Source: Rubrivivax sp.
Lineage (GTDB): Bacteria; Pseudomonadota; Gammaproteobacteria; Burkholderiales; Burkholderiaceae_C
Assembly: GCA_020720385.1 (NCBI GenBank)
Contig: DYOR01000014.1
Coordinates: 1-40,417 of the forward strand
Reading direction: 5' to 3'
Length of the DNA stretch: 40,417 nt
Part shown: positions 11,406-28,961 of the stretch, piece after piece
Position numbering within the stretch: the stretch's first letter is position 1
Layout: every line of letters starts with the position of its first letter
The notes under the pieces: generated by a model
What the model saw: the letters and a program-made list of their open reading frames with translations, nothing else
What the model was told of the DNA's origin: nothing
Databases searched by the model: none
Program-made: the position numbers and the translations under genes

Positions 11406-12152
11406 ATGAACCGAACCCTGCTCATCACCGGCGCCAGCCGCGGCATCGGCGCGGCCACGGCACGTGCGGCCGCCGCGCGTGGCTGGGACGTGGCCATCAA
11501 CTACACCCACGCCGCCGACGCGGCACAGGCCGTCGCCGCCGAGGTGCGCGCGCTGGGGCGGCGCGCCCTGGTGCTGCAGGCCGACGTGGCCGACGAGGCG
11601 CAGGTGCTGGCGCTGTTCGCCGCGCTGGATCGCGAATGGGGCCCCCTCGCGGGCCTGGTGAACAACGCCGGCGTGGTGGACGTGGCGGCGCGGCTCGACG
11701 AGATGAGCGCCGCGCGCATCCAGCGCATGTTTGCCATCAACGTCTTCGGCACGCTGTGGTGCGCGCGCGAGGCCGTGCGCCGCATGAGCACGCGCCACGG
11801 CGGCGCGGGCGGCGCCATCGTCAACCTCTCCTCGGTGGCCGCGCGCCTGGGTGCGCCGGGGCAGTACCTGGACTACGCCGCGGCCAAGGGGGCGATCGAC
11901 ACCTTCACCCTGGGCCTGGCGCGCGAGGTGGCCACCGAGGGCGTGCGCGTGAATGCAGTGCGGCCGGGCATCATCGAGACCGAGATTCACGCCAGCGGCG
12001 GCCAGCCTGGGCGCGCGCAGCAGATGGCCCCCAGCGTGCCCATGCAGCGCGCCGGCACGGCCGACGAAGTGGCCGCGGCCATCGTCTGGCTGCTCTCCGA
12101 CGAGGCCAGCTACACCACCGGCACCACCATCGACGTCAGCGGCGGGCGCTAG
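11406..12152 (+). CDS. SDR family NAD(P)-dependent oxidoreductase
   Basis: TGASRGIGAAT nucleotide-binding motif, NNAGV, YAAAKG catalytic motif, C-terminal YTTGTTIDVSGGR. Confidence 0.95.
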   Translation: MNRTLLITGASRGIGAATARAAAARGWDVAINYTHAADAAQAVAAEVRALGRRALVLQADVADEAQVLALFAALDREWGPLAGLVNNAGVVDVAARLDEMSAARIQRMFAINVFGTLWCAREAVRRMSTRHGGAGGAIVNLSSVAARLGAPGQYLDYAAAKGAIDTFTLGLAREVATEGVRVNAVRPGIIETEIHASGGQPGRAQQMAPSVPMQRAGTADEVAAAIVWLLSDEASYTTGTTIDVSGGR

Positions 12153-12174: not shown

Positions 12175-15100
12175 TCACTTGGCGTGGCCCCTGAGCGTGG
12201 CGAGCAAGGTCCTGGCCGCGTTGCGCTCCTCGCCCTTGGCCACGGCGGCATAGGCCGTCAGCACGAGCTCGGCCTGGTCGGCCACGGTGCCCCAGAGCTG
12301 GCGGCCCGAGACGCGGCCGTGCAGCTCGGCATAGGCCTCCTGCAGCGCGCCCAGCCTGGCCGCCAGGGTGCTCGAGGCGATGCCGTCGTAGGACTCGAGC
12401 TCCACCTGGCCGGCGTAGCACCAGAAGTCGGGGGCGGTGTGCGATTTGGCCTGCAGGCTGCGGCGCACGGCGTCACTGGCTTCGGCGTCGAGGCCGACCC
12501 AGCCGCGCTGGCCGACGTGGACCACCAGCTCCAGCGCCATGCGGTTGAGCGCCGGGTAGTAGAGCTCGGGTGACTGCTCGGCCGTGGCCAGCCTCTCGGC
12601 GCTGAGGTAGCTCTCGGTGGCCATCTTCAGCGCCACCTTGTGCGCCGCGAGGTTGCCGCTCTTGCGCTCGAGCAGGGCCAGGCGCTTCCACGCCGAGCCG
12701 CACAGGCAGTGCCGCTCCATCGTCGGCTGCAGCCCGGTGAGCGTCTGCAGGTCGCGCAGCGCGCGCGCGATGTCCTCGCGCGCCGCGGGCAGCGCCGCCT
12801 TGTCGGTGACCCGGTCGGCGCGCTCCCAGCCGCGGCGTGCGAGCAGGTTGCCCAGCTGCTCGTGCGTCTTGAGCGAGGCGCTGGCATCGTTGCAGCGCAG
12901 GGCGCGCTCGTACCAGGCGATGGCCGCGTCGCGGTCGCCGGCCTCGGCGTAGGCCACGCCGAAGGCCTCGGCCACCGCCCCGATCTCGCCCCACAAGGCG
13001 CTGAAGCGCGCCTCCAGGTGGCGCACCTTTTCCAGCTGCTCGGCCGGGTCGGCGCGCATCCACTTGGACTTCACCGCCACTTCCTCGAGTGCCAGCGTCA
13101 GCGCCAGCGCCGAGGCGATGCCCTCGTATTCCTCGCGCGGCGCGATGGGCGTGGCGGCGGCGTCGGCGGCGCTGCGGCGGTAGCTCCAGTTGGGGTCGCC
13201 GTAGCACTGGTAGGCGGCCCAGGTGTTGCTGGCCTTGTCTTCCAGCCAGGCCGCCTCGCGGGCGATGGCCACCGCGGTGATGAAGGGCTTGTGGTCGAGG
13301 ATCTCGCGGTAGAAGGTGGTGGCGAAGACCTTGGCCGGTGCGTCATCCACGGCCCAGCCCGCGGCGATGACGCAGCGCACGCCGATCTCGATGAGCGAGT
13401 CGGCCACGCCCCAGGCGAACTCGGCGCGGTTGATGGTGCGCAAGGCCTGCTGGCTGTCGCGCGCGGCGAGGTGGCAGCAGTTCACGAACACCAGTTCGGG
13501 CACCGTGCGCATGCTCTTGATCTCGTCGGAACCCAGGAAGGTGTCGTCCGAGAGCACCACGCCGCCCTTGCTCAGGAGCTGGCCCTTGTCGTCCTTGCGC
13601 ACGGGCTCGCCGTGGCCGGCCACGTGGATGATGCGGTAGCGGCGCTCGAACAGGGCGTTGATGATGCTGGTGGCGTCGTTGCCGTCGATGAGCGCGTTGA
13701 CGCGCTGTGCGCCCAGGCCGCCGGCGCCGCCCAGCGCCTTGACCACGGCCTCGGCCTCCGCGCGCGCGCCGGGCAGCGGCGGGTAGATGGCCGCGTCGAC
13801 CTGCGGCTCGCCGATCACCAGCACGGCGTCGTCGATGTGCGCGTCCTGCACCTGCTGGCGGTAGTGCTCCTGGCGCAGCTTGCGCAGCAACTGGGCGCGT
13901 ATGGCCCAGGGGCGGTCCTCGCTGCGCGAGGGGTCGTCGCCGCGCGTGTCGAGCAGCTCCCAGGGGATCACGGCGGTCTTGTCGTCGAGCTCGAGCAGCA
14001 CGCGGCCGGTGCCGGCGAGGAAGGGCTCCACCTCGGTCGGCACGAGCAGCTGAAAGAGGGTGCGGCCGAGCTGGGTGTCGCGGCTGCTGGCGGTGGAGGC
14101 ACGCGCCACGAGTTCGCGCAGCAACTTGCCCTGCGTGCTCTGCGCGCGCACCTCGGTGCGCGCGCGCTTGGTGTCGAGGGCGAACTCGATGTTGTCCTCG
14201 CCGGGGCAGGTGGCGCGGATGAAGTCGTAGTCGGCGCCGCGGTAGCCGCTGTCGACCTGGCGGCGCAAGGGGCCCACACCACTGCGGATGCTGGCGCTGA
14301 TCTCGAAGCGCCCGGGCGCGGCCGTGGCCAGCACCTGCAGCCCGTGCCAGGCGTCGGAGGCGCGCTCCAGGTAGAGCTCCACCAGGGTGAGATGGCTCAC
14401 CAGCGGCCAGCCGCTGGCGCGCATGCGGTCGTTGGCCTCGCGCACGCCCAGCGCGATGGCACGCGCGGCGTTGCTGCAGTTCATGCCCACGCCGCCACTG
14501 CCCATGAGGGTGGCGGCGAGCTCGATCTCCGCCGGCGCGCCCACGGCGCTTTCGGCCATGCGCTGCGCCCAGGCGATGACGCCCTGGCGCACGGTGTGCG
14601 TCAGGCCCTGCTCGTCGAGCTTGCCCTCCTCGCCCAGGCCCGCCACCACGGCGCTGGCGGGCTGCGGCGCGCGCCAGGGGTTCTCCGGGTCGGCGCTGGA
14701 GTTGACGAAGATCTGGTGCGTGCCCGGCTGGTCGGGGTACAGGCCGGCATCGAGCGAGGCCTTCATCGCCCCGCCGATGAGCCGGTTGACCACCGCCTCG
14801 GTGCCGGTGAGGCTGAGCGAGCGCGAGTGGCCCACCATGAGGTGCTGGCCGACGAAGCTCAGGTTGCCGTTGAGCACGCTCACGCGCAGCGCCGCACCGG
14901 CGCGGCCGGCCGGTGCCTCGGCCAGGGTGCGGCGGCCGGCGAAGACCGAGCGTTCGTTGTCGGCCGGCACCGCCGCGTGCCTTTCGCGCGAGGGCCGGCT
15001 GCGCACGTGCACCAGCGGCGCGCCGGCGCCGCGCGCCGCACCGCGCGCGGCACCTTCGGTGACCAGCCGCTCCAGCGCCGCGGTGTCGCCGCGCGCGAGC

Positions 15101-17703
15101 AGCTCGACGAAGGCGTCGAAGGCCCCGCCGGCATCGGGCAGGCCGCCGTGTTCGCAGTCGAGCTTCCAGGTGCGCACGCCGGGCAGCAGGGCGCACTCGA
15201 GCGGCACGCGGCCGTCGCCGCCGTCGGTGGCGTCGAGGTAGGCGAAGCCGTCGGCGCCCCATTCGAAGCCGTCGGGCGTGAACTTGGCGCGCCCCACCAC
15301 GAGCGCGACCTTGTCGGCCCAGGCGGGCAGGTCGTGCTCGCGCTGGGCATCCAGCCGCTGGCGCAGCGCGCGCGCCTGGTCGAGCACCGGCTGCGGCGGC
15401 ACGCCCCACTCGTAGGCGGCGTCGGCGCCATCGCCGGCGTAGCGGTGCCACCAGTTGGCTTCCTGCACGCGCTTGAGGTCGTCGGTGGCGAGCTTGGCCC
15501 AGGTCTCGGCGCGGTCCAGCGCGAGCGCCGGGTCGAGCAGGCTGGCCTGCAGCTGCAGGAAGCCGGGCATCTCGGCCATGAGCTGGCGCGCCTGGCGGTC
15601 GCGCAGCGGCGAGCCGAAAGCGGCCAGCGCGTTGCCGAAGGTGTCGTCGCCCGAGAGCACCTGCATCGGCGCCCACGAGCCGCCGTTGGGCGTGCCCAGC
15701 ATGAGCAGCCGCGCGCCTTCGCGTTTCATCAGGCGCTCGAAGGTCTTGGGCCGCTCGAGCTGCATGGTGCGCGCGAGCACCCCGCCCATGCTGTGGGCGA
15801 GCAGGCGCACGGGCTGGCCGCTGGCGTTGCGCGCGTCGAGCGCCTGGTCCACGGCGTCGGCCAGCCGGCGCGCTTCTTGCTCGATCGGGCGGCGCCAGTC
15901 GAAGGCGAAAGGGACCACCTCGTGCGTCTCGGCCAGGTGGTCCATGAGGTCGTCGTAGACCAGGCCGATGGGCCCGTCGGGGGCCACGCCGTCGGGCGCA
16001 CCGGTGTACTTGAGCTTGCCCAGGCCGCCGATGAGGCGCAGGCTGAGCCAGATGCGCTTGTCACCGGCCTTGAGGTTGCTGCCCAGGATGCCCGGCAGCA
16101 CGAACACGGCGGGCTTGTCGCTCGCCGGCCGCCCGTCCCCGGCGTTGCGCCGCGCGGCGCGCAGCCCGCCTGCGTCCTGCCCCGCCCAGGACAAGGGCCC
16201 GATGGTGAGGAAGCCCGCCGGCGTGGCCTGCGTCAGGCCGCCGACCACGGCCTGCACCGTGCGCTCGTTGGCGAAGTAGTTGAAGTGCGTGACCTTGCCG
16301 CCCTGGTCGAGCAGGAAGCTGGCACCGCCTTCGCGCGGGCTGCCGCCGTACATGCTGCGCGTCTGCACGACGATGTCGTTGTCGGTCCAGTAGTAGGCGT
16401 CGGCGAGCAGCGTCTTCAGCCAGCTGCCCACGCTGTCGCCCTGCAGGTCGCCGGCGACCACGCGCAGTTCGCCCGGGATGGCCTCCTCCGAGGCGTTGAG
16501 CCAGTTCACCAGCGGCGTGTCGGGGATCATCGCCGCCAGGCCGGGCAGCTCGTCGGGGCTGGCGCGGCGGCGCGCCACCTCGGCGAGGAAGTCCACCACC
16601 GCCGGCAACACGGGCACGCCGGCGAGCTCGATGGACCACTTCAGCACCGACATGTAGGCGTCGAGCCGCTTGCTCGCCAGCAGCGTGCCGCGCGCCGGGC
16701 AGGCCACGCGCAGCACGCGCTCGACGCGGATGTCCTTGGCGCGCACGGCGGCAGCGAGCTCTTGCAACTCCTTGCGCTGCCCTGCGTAGGCCGGGTCGGC
16801 AAAGAAGGCCAGGTCCGCGGCGCCGATGGGCCGCGCACCGGCCATGCGCCCGGCCACCAGCGCCAGCACCTCGGCCACCAGGCCGCCGCGCGAATGCGTG
16901 GCCAGGTGCAGCCGCGCGCCGGCCGGCAGCGCCTGCACCAGGGTCAGGGCATTGGCGATCGGACTGGCGCCGACGGTCGGGTGGTCCAGCGCATAGACGC
17001 GGCCGCCGTAAAAGCTGAAGAGCTCGCCCACACGCTGCGGGTGCAGCGCCCAGAGCTTGCCGAAAGTGCTGAAGGTGTCGACGAAGGTGCCGTGCAGAAG
17101 CACCAGCAGCGGCTCGCTCGCCGGCTTGGCGGGCGCCGGCACCTGCGCCAGCTTCAGCCCGCTGCCCTTGAGGGCGGTGAGCGACTCGCGCTCGAGCGCG
17201 TAGACACCGGCGTCGACCTGGCCGTCGACCTTGCTCACCACCAGGCTGGCGGCGAAGTCCACGGCCTTGTCCTTCGCCAGGCCGGTGAGCACCTCGAAGG
17301 CCGAGAGCACCACGTCGCCGAGGAAACCGCCGCCGCGCGTGGGCGCGGCCTGCTCCAGGCCACGCCAGCGCAGCTGGCTGGGCACGGCGATGTCGCCCGC
17401 CTCGACGCTGGCCGCGGCGCTGCGCTGCGCCGTGCCCTGGCCGAGCAGGAGATCGCGCGCGCTGTGCGGGTGCAGCATGAGCACGGGGCCCCCGGCGAGG
17501 TGCAGCAGCACCACGTCTTCGCCGGGCACGGCGGTGACGCGCACGGTGTCGCCGCCGCCACGCCGCGCCGACACGCGCACCGACTCCTTCACCTGCCCGG
17601 GCAGGCCCGAGGCGCCCGGCGGCCGCGCCGCGGGCATGCCGCGCGAGACCTGGCGCTGGCCGGGGATGACAAAGGTGATGGGCGTGTTGTCTGCGCTGGC
17701 CAT
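12175..17703 (-). CDS. Giant multidomain protein: alpha/beta-hydrolase + LCAT-like lipase + unassigned middle region + CHAT caspase-like protease + TPR-like C-terminus (1842 aa)
   Basis: ATG at 17703 preceded by GAGGAGA. Hydrolase 1: PLLVLLHGTFVDTFSTF, THSRGGLV, TDNDIVVQTRSM, KVTHFNYF. Hydrolase 2: VFVLPGILGSNL, LLAHSMGGVLARTM, GDGRVPLECA, CEHGGLPD. CHAT: IPWELLDT, RIIHVAGHGEP (His), ELVFVNCCHLA (Cys). C-terminal helical repeats with AIAWYERALRCND. Confidence 0.88.
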   Translation of the reverse strand: MASADNTPITFVIPGQRQVSRGMPAARPPGASGLPGQVKESVRVSARRGGGDTVRVTAVPGEDVVLLHLAGGPVLMLHPHSARDLLLGQGTAQRSAAASVEAGDIAVPSQLRWRGLEQAAPTRGGGFLGDVVLSAFEVLTGLAKDKAVDFAASLVVSKVDGQVDAGVYALERESLTALKGSGLKLAQVPAPAKPASEPLLVLLHGTFVDTFSTFGKLWALHPQRVGELFSFYGGRVYALDHPTVGASPIANALTLVQALPAGARLHLATHSRGGLVAEVLALVAGRMAGARPIGAADLAFFADPAYAGQRKELQELAAAVRAKDIRVERVLRVACPARGTLLASKRLDAYMSVLKWSIELAGVPVLPAVVDFLAEVARRRASPDELPGLAAMIPDTPLVNWLNASEEAIPGELRVVAGDLQGDSVGSWLKTLLADAYYWTDNDIVVQTRSMYGGSPREGGASFLLDQGGKVTHFNYFANERTVQAVVGGLTQATPAGFLTIGPLSWAGQDAGGLRAARRNAGDGRPASDKPAVFVLPGILGSNLKAGDKRIWLSLRLIGGLGKLKYTGAPDGVAPDGPIGLVYDDLMDHLAETHEVVPFAFDWRRPIEQEARRLADAVDQALDARNASGQPVRLLAHSMGGVLARTMQLERPKTFERLMKREGARLLMLGTPNGGSWAPMQVLSGDDTFGNALAAFGSPLRDRQARQLMAEMPGFLQLQASLLDPALALDRAETWAKLATDDLKRVQEANWWHRYAGDGADAAYEWGVPPQPVLDQARALRQRLDAQREHDLPAWADKVALVVGRAKFTPDGFEWGADGFAYLDATDGGDGRVPLECALLPGVRTWKLDCEHGGLPDAGGAFDAFVELLARGDTAALERLVTEGAARGAARGAGAPLVHVRSRPSRERHAAVPADNERSVFAGRRTLAEAPAGRAGAALRVSVLNGNLSFVGQHLMVGHSRSLSLTGTEAVVNRLIGGAMKASLDAGLYPDQPGTHQIFVNSSADPENPWRAPQPASAVVAGLGEEGKLDEQGLTHTVRQGVIAWAQRMAESAVGAPAEIELAATLMGSGGVGMNCSNAARAIALGVREANDRMRASGWPLVSHLTLVELYLERASDAWHGLQVLATAAPGRFEISASIRSGVGPLRRQVDSGYRGADYDFIRATCPGEDNIEFALDTKRARTEVRAQSTQGKLLRELVARASTASSRDTQLGRTLFQLLVPTEVEPFLAGTGRVLLELDDKTAVIPWELLDTRGDDPSRSEDRPWAIRAQLLRKLRQEHYRQQVQDAHIDDAVLVIGEPQVDAAIYPPLPGARAEAEAVVKALGGAGGLGAQRVNALIDGNDATSIINALFERRYRIIHVAGHGEPVRKDDKGQLLSKGGVVLSDDTFLGSDEIKSMRTVPELVFVNCCHLAARDSQQALRTINRAEFAWGVADSLIEIGVRCVIAAGWAVDDAPAKVFATTFYREILDHKPFITAVAIAREAAWLEDKASNTWAAYQCYGDPNWSYRRSAADAAATPIAPREEYEGIASALALTLALEEVAVKSKWMRADPAEQLEKVRHLEARFSALWGEIGAVAEAFGVAYAEAGDRDAAIAWYERALRCNDASASLKTHEQLGNLLARRGWERADRVTDKAALPAAREDIARALRDLQTLTGLQPTMERHCLCGSAWKRLALLERKSGNLAAHKVALKMATESYLSAERLATAEQSPELYYPALNRMALELVVHVGQRGWVGLDAEASDAVRRSLQAKSHTAPDFWCYAGQVELESYDGIASSTLAARLGALQEAYAELHGRVSGRQLWGTVADQAELVLTAYAAVAKGEERNAARTLLATLRGHAK

Positions 17704-17765
17704 GCCGTCTCCTCGATAGGAGCGCGAGCATCGGCGCAAAGCGCCGCCCCAGCAAGACGTGGTGC

Positions 17766-18653
17766 CTATCGACCTAGGGGTGGCGCCAGCCGCTGCAGCA
17801 CCAGGGTGGCCAGGCCCGAGCGCTGCTGCAGCTGCTGTGCGGCGGCCAGCGCCGCCTCGCGCGTGGCAAAAGGCCCGGCCTGCACGCGCAGCAGGCCCGC
17901 CTCCTCGAGCACCGCCACGCCGGGCAGACCCTCGGCCTCGCGCAGCGCGCGCTGCTGCAACTGCACGGCACCCTCGCGCTGGCGAAAGGCACCCAGCTGC
18001 AGCCAGAAGCCCGCCTCGGCCTGCGGGCGTTCACCCGGCGCGGGGTCGTCGGCGGGCAGCCCCGGGGTCGGCGCCAGGCTCGCCAGCGCTCGCGGCGTCA
18101 GGCCGGCACGGATCTCGCCGTGCGTGAGGCGGCGCACTTCCACCGGCGCCACGCCGCGCAGCACGCCGAGCTTGAGCGCGGCGGTGTAGCTCAGGTCGAT
18201 GACGCGGCCCTCGGCGAAGGGGCCGCGGTCGTTGATGCGCACGATCACCTCGCGCCCGTTGGCCGGGTTGCGCACGCGCGCATAGCTCGGGATCGGCATG
18301 GTCTTGTGCGCCGCCGTCATCGCGTACATGTCGTAGGGCTCGCCGCTGGAGGTAGGCAGGCCGTGAAACTTGCGTCCGTACCACGAGGCGCCGCCGCGCT
18401 CGGCCCAGGGCAGGTCGGCGCTCATCGGCACGTAGCGCTGGCCGAACACCTCGTAGGGCTTGTTGGGGCCACCCACGCGCAGCGGCTCGACGCGCGGCTC
18501 GGCATCGGGCACCTGCTCCAGGTCGGCCGGCGGGCGCAGCGGCGGGCCGTCCGCTCCGGCCGGCGCACGCGGGCGGCTGGCGCAGCCGCCCAGCGCCAGG
18601 GCGACGAGCAGGACGGATGCGAGCAGCGCGTTGAGATGACGCAGGCGGTTCAA
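17766..18653 (-). CDS. rlpA: Septal ring lytic transglycosylase RlpA family lipoprotein with SPOR domain
   Basis: Lipobox LALGGC; PYEVFGQRYVPMSADLPWAERGGASWYGRKFHGLPTSSGEPYDMYAMTAAHKTMPIPSYARVRNPANGREVIVRINDRGPFAEGRVIDLSYTAALKLG; C-terminal SPOR-like repeat. Confidence 0.95.
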   Translation of the reverse strand: MNRLRHLNALLASVLLVALALGGCASRPRAPAGADGPPLRPPADLEQVPDAEPRVEPLRVGGPNKPYEVFGQRYVPMSADLPWAERGGASWYGRKFHGLPTSSGEPYDMYAMTAAHKTMPIPSYARVRNPANGREVIVRINDRGPFAEGRVIDLSYTAALKLGVLRGVAPVEVRRLTHGEIRAGLTPRALASLAPTPGLPADDPAPGERPQAEAGFWLQLGAFRQREGAVQLQQRALREAEGLPGVAVLEEAGLLRVQAGPFATREAALAAAQQLQQRSGLATLVLQRLAPPLGR

Positions 18654-27221: not shown

Positions 27222-28961
27222 TTAGAACTTGACCTCGAGCGTGCCGTACACGTCGTAGGCCTTGGACAGCGGCGTGGTGGGCATCATCTGACCATTCACG
27301 TCGGATATCTTCATCGGCGCGCCGACCCAGTTGTTGCTGCCGGTGTACTTGAAGTCGTAGTACTGGACACCCAGGCGGAAGAAGGTCTTCGCCGAACGCG
27401 AGGCCAGCGGGGTGTCGGCGAACTCGTGAATCACGTAGGCGTCGTAGACGTTGCCGCGCGTGCCGACCTTGGATGTCCACATGTCGCCGGCCGCCGGCGC
27501 AAAGGTGATCCAGTTCTTGCTGCCGTGGTTGTATTCGAAGCCGATCTTGGTGTTCGACGGCAGGTCGTACCGCATACCGAGCAGAATCGCGCCGCCGGTC
27601 TTGCTGGTCGGGGCTTCGGGATTGAAGAATCCACCGGTCATCAAACCCTGGAAGCCGAACTGTGCGGAGACGTTGCTGTTCGGGTGCGTGACACTCAGAC
27701 CCAGATCTGCAAAGTAGTTCAGGGTACCGCTGCCGAGCTTGATCGAGCTGGCCGCGCCGACACCGTACCAGTCGATATCACCCAGATTGATCTTCGGGAT
27801 GGTGTTGCCGAAATAGGTGTTGCTCATCTGCGGCGCGTCGAAGATCTTCACGCCGCGGTTCCATTGCAGCCACACGCGCAGGGCCTCGGTGTCGAAGGGC
27901 ACCACGGCCACGCCCAGCATGTCGGTGTCGTCGATGGAGTTGCCGCGCGGCGTGCTGAAGCCGCTCTCGAAGCCGCGTCCGTAGCACACCTTGCTGTAGA
28001 AGCCGGGCAGGGATTCGATCTCCGGCGCGTAGCCCAGGGTCATGCCGTCGAAGGCGTAGTTGACGAGCAGCGCCGGGGTGCCGCCGTTGCCCGGGCGGGC
28101 GGTGTTGTTCTTGAAGTTCGTCGGTGCGCCGTCGGTGGCGGGCCGGCGACCCACGGAGAACCAGATGTCCTCGTTCGGGCCGAGGTTCTTCCAGGTGGCG
28201 AACGCCCGGTCGACATTCAGGTAGCTGCTCGACGGCACATGGCCCAGCGTGCCGTCGAAAACGCCCACGCGGTCGGCAAAGAACGGCGCACTGCCCGCAT
28301 TCACCACCGACGACTCGCTCTGCGAGCCGAACACCTTGTACATGCCGAGCTTCACCGTCATGGACACGTTGTCGGTCACGTGCATGCCCAGGTCGAGGCC
28401 GAACTTGTTGGTGTAGGTGAGCTTGTTCTTGGGCTTGTAGGCGTCGACGAAGGCCGGGCCGGCGAAGGAGGCGAGGCCACCCATCATGGCCATGTTCGCG
28501 CCAAGGAAGGCCTGCGCCTGATCGAAGGTCTGCACCCCGGCCATGCCGCTGGCGAAACCCATCAACCCGGTGAGCATGGCGCCGGTTTCTGGCGTGGGGT
28601 TGGAGAAGAAGGCGGTCTGGAGCTGGTTTTGCGCGTTGGCAAATACCGCACTCACGTCAGTGAATGGTTTTGTTTCGCCATTGAGACTGTCGACACGGAA
28701 TTGATAATCACCGCCAACGGTCAACCACTGACCCAGGGATTTATCGCCAACGCGTTTGACGCTTTTGGCAACTTCCGCCGCCACTTCCTTCTTTGCATTT
28801 TCCTGGTTGGCCTTGACCTGGGCCTTGAGTTGTTCCAGTTCCTTGGTCAGTTCTTCGACGCGGCGAAGAATATCTGCCTCGGCGGCAAAAACGCCAACTG
28901 GCAGGAACATACCCGAAACAATGGCCGACAGCACGGCCAGTTTCATTCGACTTTGTCTCAT
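27222..28961 (-). CDS. DUF3373 family outer-membrane porin-like protein
   Basis: 579 aa; signal peptide, N-terminal coiled coil EADILRRVEELTKELEQLKAQVKAN, then GDYQFRVDSL, KFGLDLGMHVTDNVSMTVKLGMYKVFG, WFSVGRRPATDGAPTNFKNN and terminal beta-strand VYGTLEVKF. Confidence 0.85.
   Translation of the reverse strand: MRQSRMKLAVLSAIVSGMFLPVGVFAAEADILRRVEELTKELEQLKAQVKANQENAKKEVAAEVAKSVKRVGDKSLGQWLTVGGDYQFRVDSLNGETKPFTDVSAVFANAQNQLQTAFFSNPTPETGAMLTGLMGFASGMAGVQTFDQAQAFLGANMAMMGGLASFAGPAFVDAYKPKNKLTYTNKFGLDLGMHVTDNVSMTVKLGMYKVFGSQSESSVVNAGSAPFFADRVGVFDGTLGHVPSSSYLNVDRAFATWKNLGPNEDIWFSVGRRPATDGAPTNFKNNTARPGNGGTPALLVNYAFDGMTLGYAPEIESLPGFYSKVCYGRGFESGFSTPRGNSIDDTDMLGVAVVPFDTEALRVWLQWNRGVKIFDAPQMSNTYFGNTIPKINLGDIDWYGVGAASSIKLGSGTLNYFADLGLSVTHPNSNVSAQFGFQGLMTGGFFNPEAPTSKTGGAILLGMRYDLPSNTKIGFEYNHGSKNWITFAPAAGDMWTSKVGTRGNVYDAYVIHEFADTPLASRSAKTFFRLGVQYYDFKYTGSNNWVGAPMKISDVNGQMMPTTPLSKAYDVYGTLEVKF

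Follow-up and report, generated by a model that had tools for sequence, protein, structure and literature searches.

A double-hydrolase, macro-like and CHAT protease protein of Rubrivivax: a probable executor of a caspase-type conflict system

A gene of a Rubrivivax-type bacterium (MAG of 3.36 Mb) encodes one long chain in which two lipase-like hydrolases are joined to a caspase-like CHAT protease, and raises the question of whether such a combination serves immunity, envelope lysis or lipid housekeeping. The window, by which we mean the whole 40,417-nucleotide stretch that was analysed, was originally predicted to encode a self-contained, protease-gated phospholipase, with a housekeeping or envelope role held to be equally open. 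Because relatives of the protein lie repeatedly beside metacaspase, TIR and STAND (NLR-like) genes, we consider it most likely to be the executioner of a caspase-type immune or suicide system. On balance, we believe that it is a cytoplasmic executor in bacterial conflict, which would unleash its two lipid hydrolases.

The reading frame, as translated from the window, runs uninterrupted for 1842 codons from an ATG at 17703 to a stop at 12175-12177. Its codon-position GC of 0.74/0.51/0.96 is typical of a genuine gene at such GC content. An intact frame of this length had been claimed at the outset, and is confirmed by the translation, the codon-position GC and a ribosome-binding site. The domain order is an N-terminal region, the DUF7379 hydrolase 1, the LCAT-like hydrolase 2, a macro/M17N-like domain, CHAT and TPR-S:

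17709..17714 (-): ribosome-binding site GAGGAG, 5 nt upstream of the ATG, read from the sequence
12175..17703 (-): whole gene, hydrolase-hydrolase-macro-CHAT-TPR-S (ORF, translation, codon-position GC, Pfam, 77 full-length homologues)
16234..17121 (-): alpha/beta hydrolase 1 (DUF7379), aa ~195-490 (Pfam, structure model, conserved residues)
15064..16113 (-): alpha/beta hydrolase 2 (LCAT-like), aa ~531-880 (Pfam, Foldseek, conserved residues)
14899..15063 (-): variable linker, aa 881-935 (alignment, composition; pLDDT < 50 at aa 883-894)
15040..15045 (-): Arg887-Gly888, candidate cleavage site (Arg conservation in homologues)
14254..14898 (-): macro/M17N-like domain, aa ~936-1150 (Foldseek on the predicted model, weak Pfam match in one homologue)
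13195..14073 (-): predicted CHAT protease domain, aa 1211-1503, dyad His1364 and Cys1410 (Pfam, conservation)
12178..13116 (-): TPR superhelix with TPR-S (aa 1591-1724), aa ~1530-1842 (Pfam, model, Foldseek)

Residue conservation was assessed in 77 full-length homologues, down to ~30% identity and with a few representing the same locus twice. Structures were modelled separately for the N half and the C half from alignments of 27 sequences (mean pLDDT 74 and 80). Both hydrolases match Pfam above curated cut-offs (DUF7379 at aa 200-288, E 1.2e-26; LCAT at aa 594-691, E 9.1e-6), and the best Foldseek matches of the N-half model are LCAT and bacterial lipases. The predicted triad of hydrolase 1 consists of Ser271 (THSRGG motif, codon at 16891-16893), Asp443 and His473, which are kept in 76, 77 and 77 of the 77 homologues; that of hydrolase 2 consists of Ser638 (HSMGG motif, codon at 15790-15792), Asp830 (in GDGRVP) and His852 (in CEHGG), kept in 73, 77 and 77. 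The fold and the full predicted Ser-Asp-His triad of LCAT/lipase-type enzymes are thus both present. Ser638 is replaced by Gly in four homologues (two loci, each present twice or nearly so) and Ser271 is missing in one, so that one hydrolase can be lost.

The C half carries the predicted protease. CHAT (PF12770; aa 1211-1503, E 9.3e-31) scores 107.8 bits against a cut-off of 24, and the two residues of its predicted dyad, His1364 of the GHG motif (codon at 13612-13614) and Cys1410 of the CC pair (residues 1409-1410, at ~13474-13479), are each present in 77/77 homologues. The tail matches TPR-S (aa 1591-1724, E 1.1e-9), also above the curated cut-off, and the C-half model matches TPR superhelices in Foldseek; since Pfam has the name TPR-S, this tail has already been described by others. 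The same model matches leucine aminopeptidase N-domains and macro domains with probability 1.0, including macroH2A with a TM-score by target of 0.70 (probability 1.0), a value that qualifies the predicted model as a macro fold, and from these Foldseek matches aa ~936-1150 are assigned as a macro/M17N-like domain. When the C half was searched against the PDB by sequence profile, TPR proteins were the only matches, so that the assignment rests on the model and on one sub-cut-off Pfam match, to Peptidase_M17_N (E 0.0037), seen in the macro region of a hydrolase-free Rhizobium homologue only. By analogy, the macro-like domain may be a ligand sensor.

Strong selection appears to act on all three active sites, namely the two triads and the CHAT dyad. 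The motifs THSRGG, HSMGG, GHG, CC, GDGRVP and CEHGG all lie where the original prediction had placed them, and its proposal of CHAT and double-hydrolase folds is borne out by Pfam and by the N-half model, as is the conservation of every predicted catalytic residue (73-77 of the 77 homologues each). The domains that it named stand; it had missed the macro/M17N-like domain, Asp443 and His473, the identity of the tail as TPR-S, and the linker Arg887. A simple hydropathy scan of the protein gave no clear membrane segment. PADLOC returned no match, and NCBIfam no specific family for the protein.

Arg887 lies in the variable linker that follows hydrolase 2. It is conserved in 60 of 62 non-redundant homologues, mostly with Gly, Ala or Ser next, and is better kept than any other column of aa 880-935, such as P913 (55/62) and P904 (54/62); the linker alignment is gappy, and the aligner may therefore partly inflate the Arg887 column. 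Arg followed by Gly, Ala or Ser occurs in this stretch in 57 of the 62 homologues, compared with a mean of 41 and a maximum of 50 in residue shuffles, a control that we read as positive and not overwhelming. The stretch has pLDDT < 50 and is close to the end of the modelled construct. Arg/Lys enrichment of the linker as a whole was considered and rejected as weak (0.127, vs ~0.10 in the hydrolase, macro and CHAT domains); only Arg887 stands out. Metacaspases cleave after Arg or Lys, and separases, which are clan CD relatives, cleave after Arg (PMC4357240). Together with the conservation of Arg887, these preferences make Arg887-Gly888 a candidate cleavage site. Linker proteolysis would be compatible with Arg887 as the best-conserved linker residue, and the partner metacaspase described below bears the active-site motif of this Arg/Lys-cutting family.

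The genes that accompany homologues point to the context in which the protein acts. Divergent homologues carry a metacaspase (C14) of ~280 aa with SGHG and D-x-CHSG motifs intact, encoded mostly directly upstream and on the same strand. C14 genes lie <=5 kb from the homologue in 15/36 genomes, compared with 0.23 expected from genome-wide counts, and TIR genes in 8/36, compared with 0.45 (Poisson p ~2e-22 and ~3e-8, both of which ignore relatedness); when mapped on the protein tree, neither association can be accounted for by fewer than 8 changes. In the linked cassette of L141 both partners occur together (C14-main-TIR). The TIR and STAND partners include a TIR-NB-ARC-TPR gene directly upstream (L101), a TIR-SLOG gene (L098), a TIR protein encoded immediately downstream (L140) and, in Ensifer, a neighbouring nSTAND1 with a propeller-like region (L171). 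A Rhizobium locus (L173) encodes a macro-CHAT-TPR-S protein that lacks the hydrolases and is flanked by two TIR-nSTAND1-WD40 genes; a second hydrolase-free CHAT-TPR-S gene is found at L153. The Azotobacter plasmid copy adjoins restriction-modification and Fic genes. The immunity-type logic originally proposed for the protein gains support from the recurrence of metacaspase, TIR and STAND neighbours.

Two Paracoccus plasmids encode large proteins (1094 aa, L170:4682-7966; 1081 aa, L172:4279-7524) with almost no Pfam matches, on the same strand as the CHAT gene and directly upstream of it; they are possible sensors. An LCAT-CHAT protein of 1133 aa that lacks DUF7379 (L111:8440-11841, genome G008) possibly represents an intermediate architecture.

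No partner gene lies beside the CHAT gene in the window, as the original prediction had observed, and the Pfam-scanned neighbours gave no match to gasdermin (window and divergent loci) or to Cas genes (window). Several homologues likewise have no obvious co-directional partner adjoining them (e.g., L104, L107, L142, L143). These copies, and the presence of all required parts in one chain, speak for a self-contained enzyme in which CHAT would cut the linker of its own chain without help from a partner, and self-cutting at Arg887 would be possible since separases cut after Arg (PMC4357240). We nevertheless regard this reading as unlikely, given that metacaspase, TIR and STAND partners recur across homologues far above chance and that the metacaspase co-occurs with the gene even when unlinked. 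The genome of the window itself has a metacaspase, P0002, on another contig (L121), 77% identical to the metacaspase that immediately precedes the gene in L049. Within the genus, this metacaspase family is present in 12/23 genomes with the gene vs 0/14 without it (Fisher p 9e-4), and in 7/16 vs 0/9 when only genomes >=90% complete are counted (p 0.03); order-wide, any C14 gene is present in 11/12 genomes with the gene vs 41/188 without it (p 1.5e-6). The gene order in G022, read from coordinates, is RlpA, metacaspase, CHAT gene. The searched family is missing from 11/23 gene-bearing genus genomes, indicating that the partner is not obligatory, that other proteases substitute, or that assemblies miss the metacaspase gene.

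The genome of the window also encodes a related pair (L112:7330-13345, contig C68): a DUF7379-CHAT protein (1150 aa) and, after it, a CHAT protein (859 aa) with a TPR match. The two reading frames share 17 nt.

The distribution of the gene bears on whether it belongs to the core genome. The family is present in 23/37 genus genomes (a count that includes fragments and divergent versions and leaves out a weak partial match in G008) and absent from about a third. In the genus, inheritance is mostly vertical and the gene sits mostly in one slot, which lies among core genes and not in a defence island, between two flanks:

17769..18653 (-): RlpA (DPBB, SPOR), upstream flank of the slot (Pfam; sole genome copy)
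11406..12149 (+): SDR gene, downstream flank of the slot (Pfam)

The slot is empty, with RlpA directly joined to SDR, in L174 (gap 28 bp), L175, L176, L179 and L177, the last from a genome that has the gene elsewhere. Since RlpA and SDR are adjacent in several congeners without the gene at this slot, the gene is accessory. Outside the genus its occurrence is sporadic (25/399 genomes of the order, 13/369 of the class and 5/399 of the phylum, in samples that include the window's own genome), and plasmid copies are found in Azotobacter, Paracoccus, Ensifer and Rhizobium. A phage collection and IMG/VR contained no relative of the protein, and thus gave no sign of carriage by phages. The original prediction had named in advance, as evidence against itself, a universal presence in a single fixed core context; within the genus the slot is fixed but presence is not universal, and outside the genus that pattern is not seen.

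A ~32%-identical version of the gene in the congener G015 (L116:6103-12822) also lies just downstream of RlpA, so that integration may favour the RlpA slot. Elsewhere in the window, a DUF3373 protein of 579 aa (27222-28961, reverse strand) lies within a local GC dip to ~0.62.

A role for RlpA as a dedicated peptidoglycan partner was considered and rejected, since the genome has no other DPBB_1 match and RlpA stays where the CHAT gene is absent; it is probably a bystander. Other cell-wall genes do occur near homologues. M15-type peptidase genes are found in five loci (L092, L093, L105, L114, L152), among them genes beside the CHAT gene or its metacaspase at L092:6318-7007, L105:12986-13693 and L114:13884-14603, and an amidase gene in a similar position lies inside the L108 cassette (L108:12915-13856). 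The peptidases and the amidase suggest the cell wall as a further target of some versions. They would fit, as would the RlpA that adjoins the gene in Rubrivivax, a protease-run cassette of lipases and cell-wall hydrolases for envelope lysis or remodelling, serving development or programmed lysis and not phage defence. That most loci have no cell-wall genes, that RlpA is a sole copy kept when the gene is absent, and that TIR and STAND partners favour immunity make this explanation quite improbable; a lysis step and the immune reading are, in any case, mutually compatible. It is very improbable that the protein is a lipid enzyme of housekeeping type whose protease tail is regulatory and whose gene passes on with the core genome, since the fixed slot, mostly vertical inheritance and core neighbours that this role would explain in the genus are set against the third or so of congeners that lack the gene (several with cleanly joined flanks), its sporadic presence in 25/399 order genomes, its plasmid copies and an invariant CHAT dyad indicating that the tail is not degenerate, and the equal standing once given to this role is lost.

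The executor of a caspase-type conflict system that we favour would act in several steps, in an order that we infer. The macro-like domain, the TPR-S tail or both would sense a ligand that signals infection; in some lineages this ligand is probably derived from NAD and produced by a TIR or TIR-STAND partner. Sensing would trigger proteolysis by the CHAT domain of the protein itself, together with the partner metacaspase in lineages that have one. The linker after hydrolase 2, with Arg887-Gly888 as the candidate site, would then be cleaved or rearranged, freeing or activating the lipase-like hydrolases. These would damage the cell's own membrane lipids, their putative substrate, and the cell would be killed or arrested, stopping the infection. 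A more specific form of this scheme is put forward only tentatively: a two-tier caspase cascade in which TIR or STAND proteins give or relay an NAD-derived signal, macro-CHAT receives it, and metacaspase and CHAT cut at the linker Arg to release a phospholipase-like killer pair, the lipase counterpart of gasdermin release.

In animals, caspases unleash gasdermin. If the proposed mechanism is true, bacterial caspase relatives would unleash membrane-degrading lipases in a parallel manner, and one family would join TIR/NAD products, macro-fold sensing and proteolysis in a single chain. The switching of partners among metacaspase, TIR, STAND and, with the hydrolase-free core, TIR-STAND reveals interchangeable parts, and the cascade is directly testable.

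A literature search of partial coverage found no paper describing this architecture, none on DUF7379 and none relevant to TPR-S; several known systems resemble it in part. For the VMAP (MoxR-vWA) systems, whose immune context is predicted, Kaur et al. (2020; PMC7159879) state that caspase domains of VMAP components are invariably accompanied by a neighbouring alpha/beta hydrolase, the same pairing of a caspase-superfamily protease with an alpha/beta hydrolase as here. The VMAP hydrolase is, however, a separate neighbouring gene, whereas here two hydrolases, the macro-like domain and CHAT form one chain with the metacaspase as an extra, and the Pfam-scanned neighbours (window and divergent loci) include no MoxR, vWA or VMAP genes. 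In the Canu antiphage system, a caspase cuts a pro-nuclease, and conserved residues in disordered segments are the proposed cut sites (PMC12799240). Canu likewise places a caspase-family protease beside a hydrolytic effector; its effector is an MBL-fold nuclease encoded by a separate gene, its protease has Ig-like domains and not TPR or macro domains, and its defence has been shown by experiment.

Thoeris shares the TIR partner, and offers two likenesses: a macro-fold sensor of an NAD-derived signal, as ThsA macro domains bind ADPR-type ligands (PMC11204291), and the activation of a caspase-like protease by a TIR signal in Thoeris with a caspase-like effector, according to the account of Rousset et al. 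(2025) cited in PMC12799240. ThsA is a TM-macro protein without protease or lipase, whereas here a TIR partner occurs in a minority of loci only; no TIR gene (ThsB) lies next to the window gene. Craspase, the TPR-CHAT of type III-E CRISPR, is alike in joining a CHAT protease with TPR, but its Csx29 has neither hydrolases nor a macro domain and is run by Cas7-11, with no CRISPR gene among the neighbours examined here. The closest solved structure to the metacaspase P0002, the metacaspase-like GSU0716 of Geobacter (PDB 3bij, E 2.4e-83), is an uncharacterised structural-genomics protein. Caspase with hydrolase, TIR with macro, and CHAT with TPR are thus each known pairings; what is new is that one protein combines them and has a metacaspase as partner.
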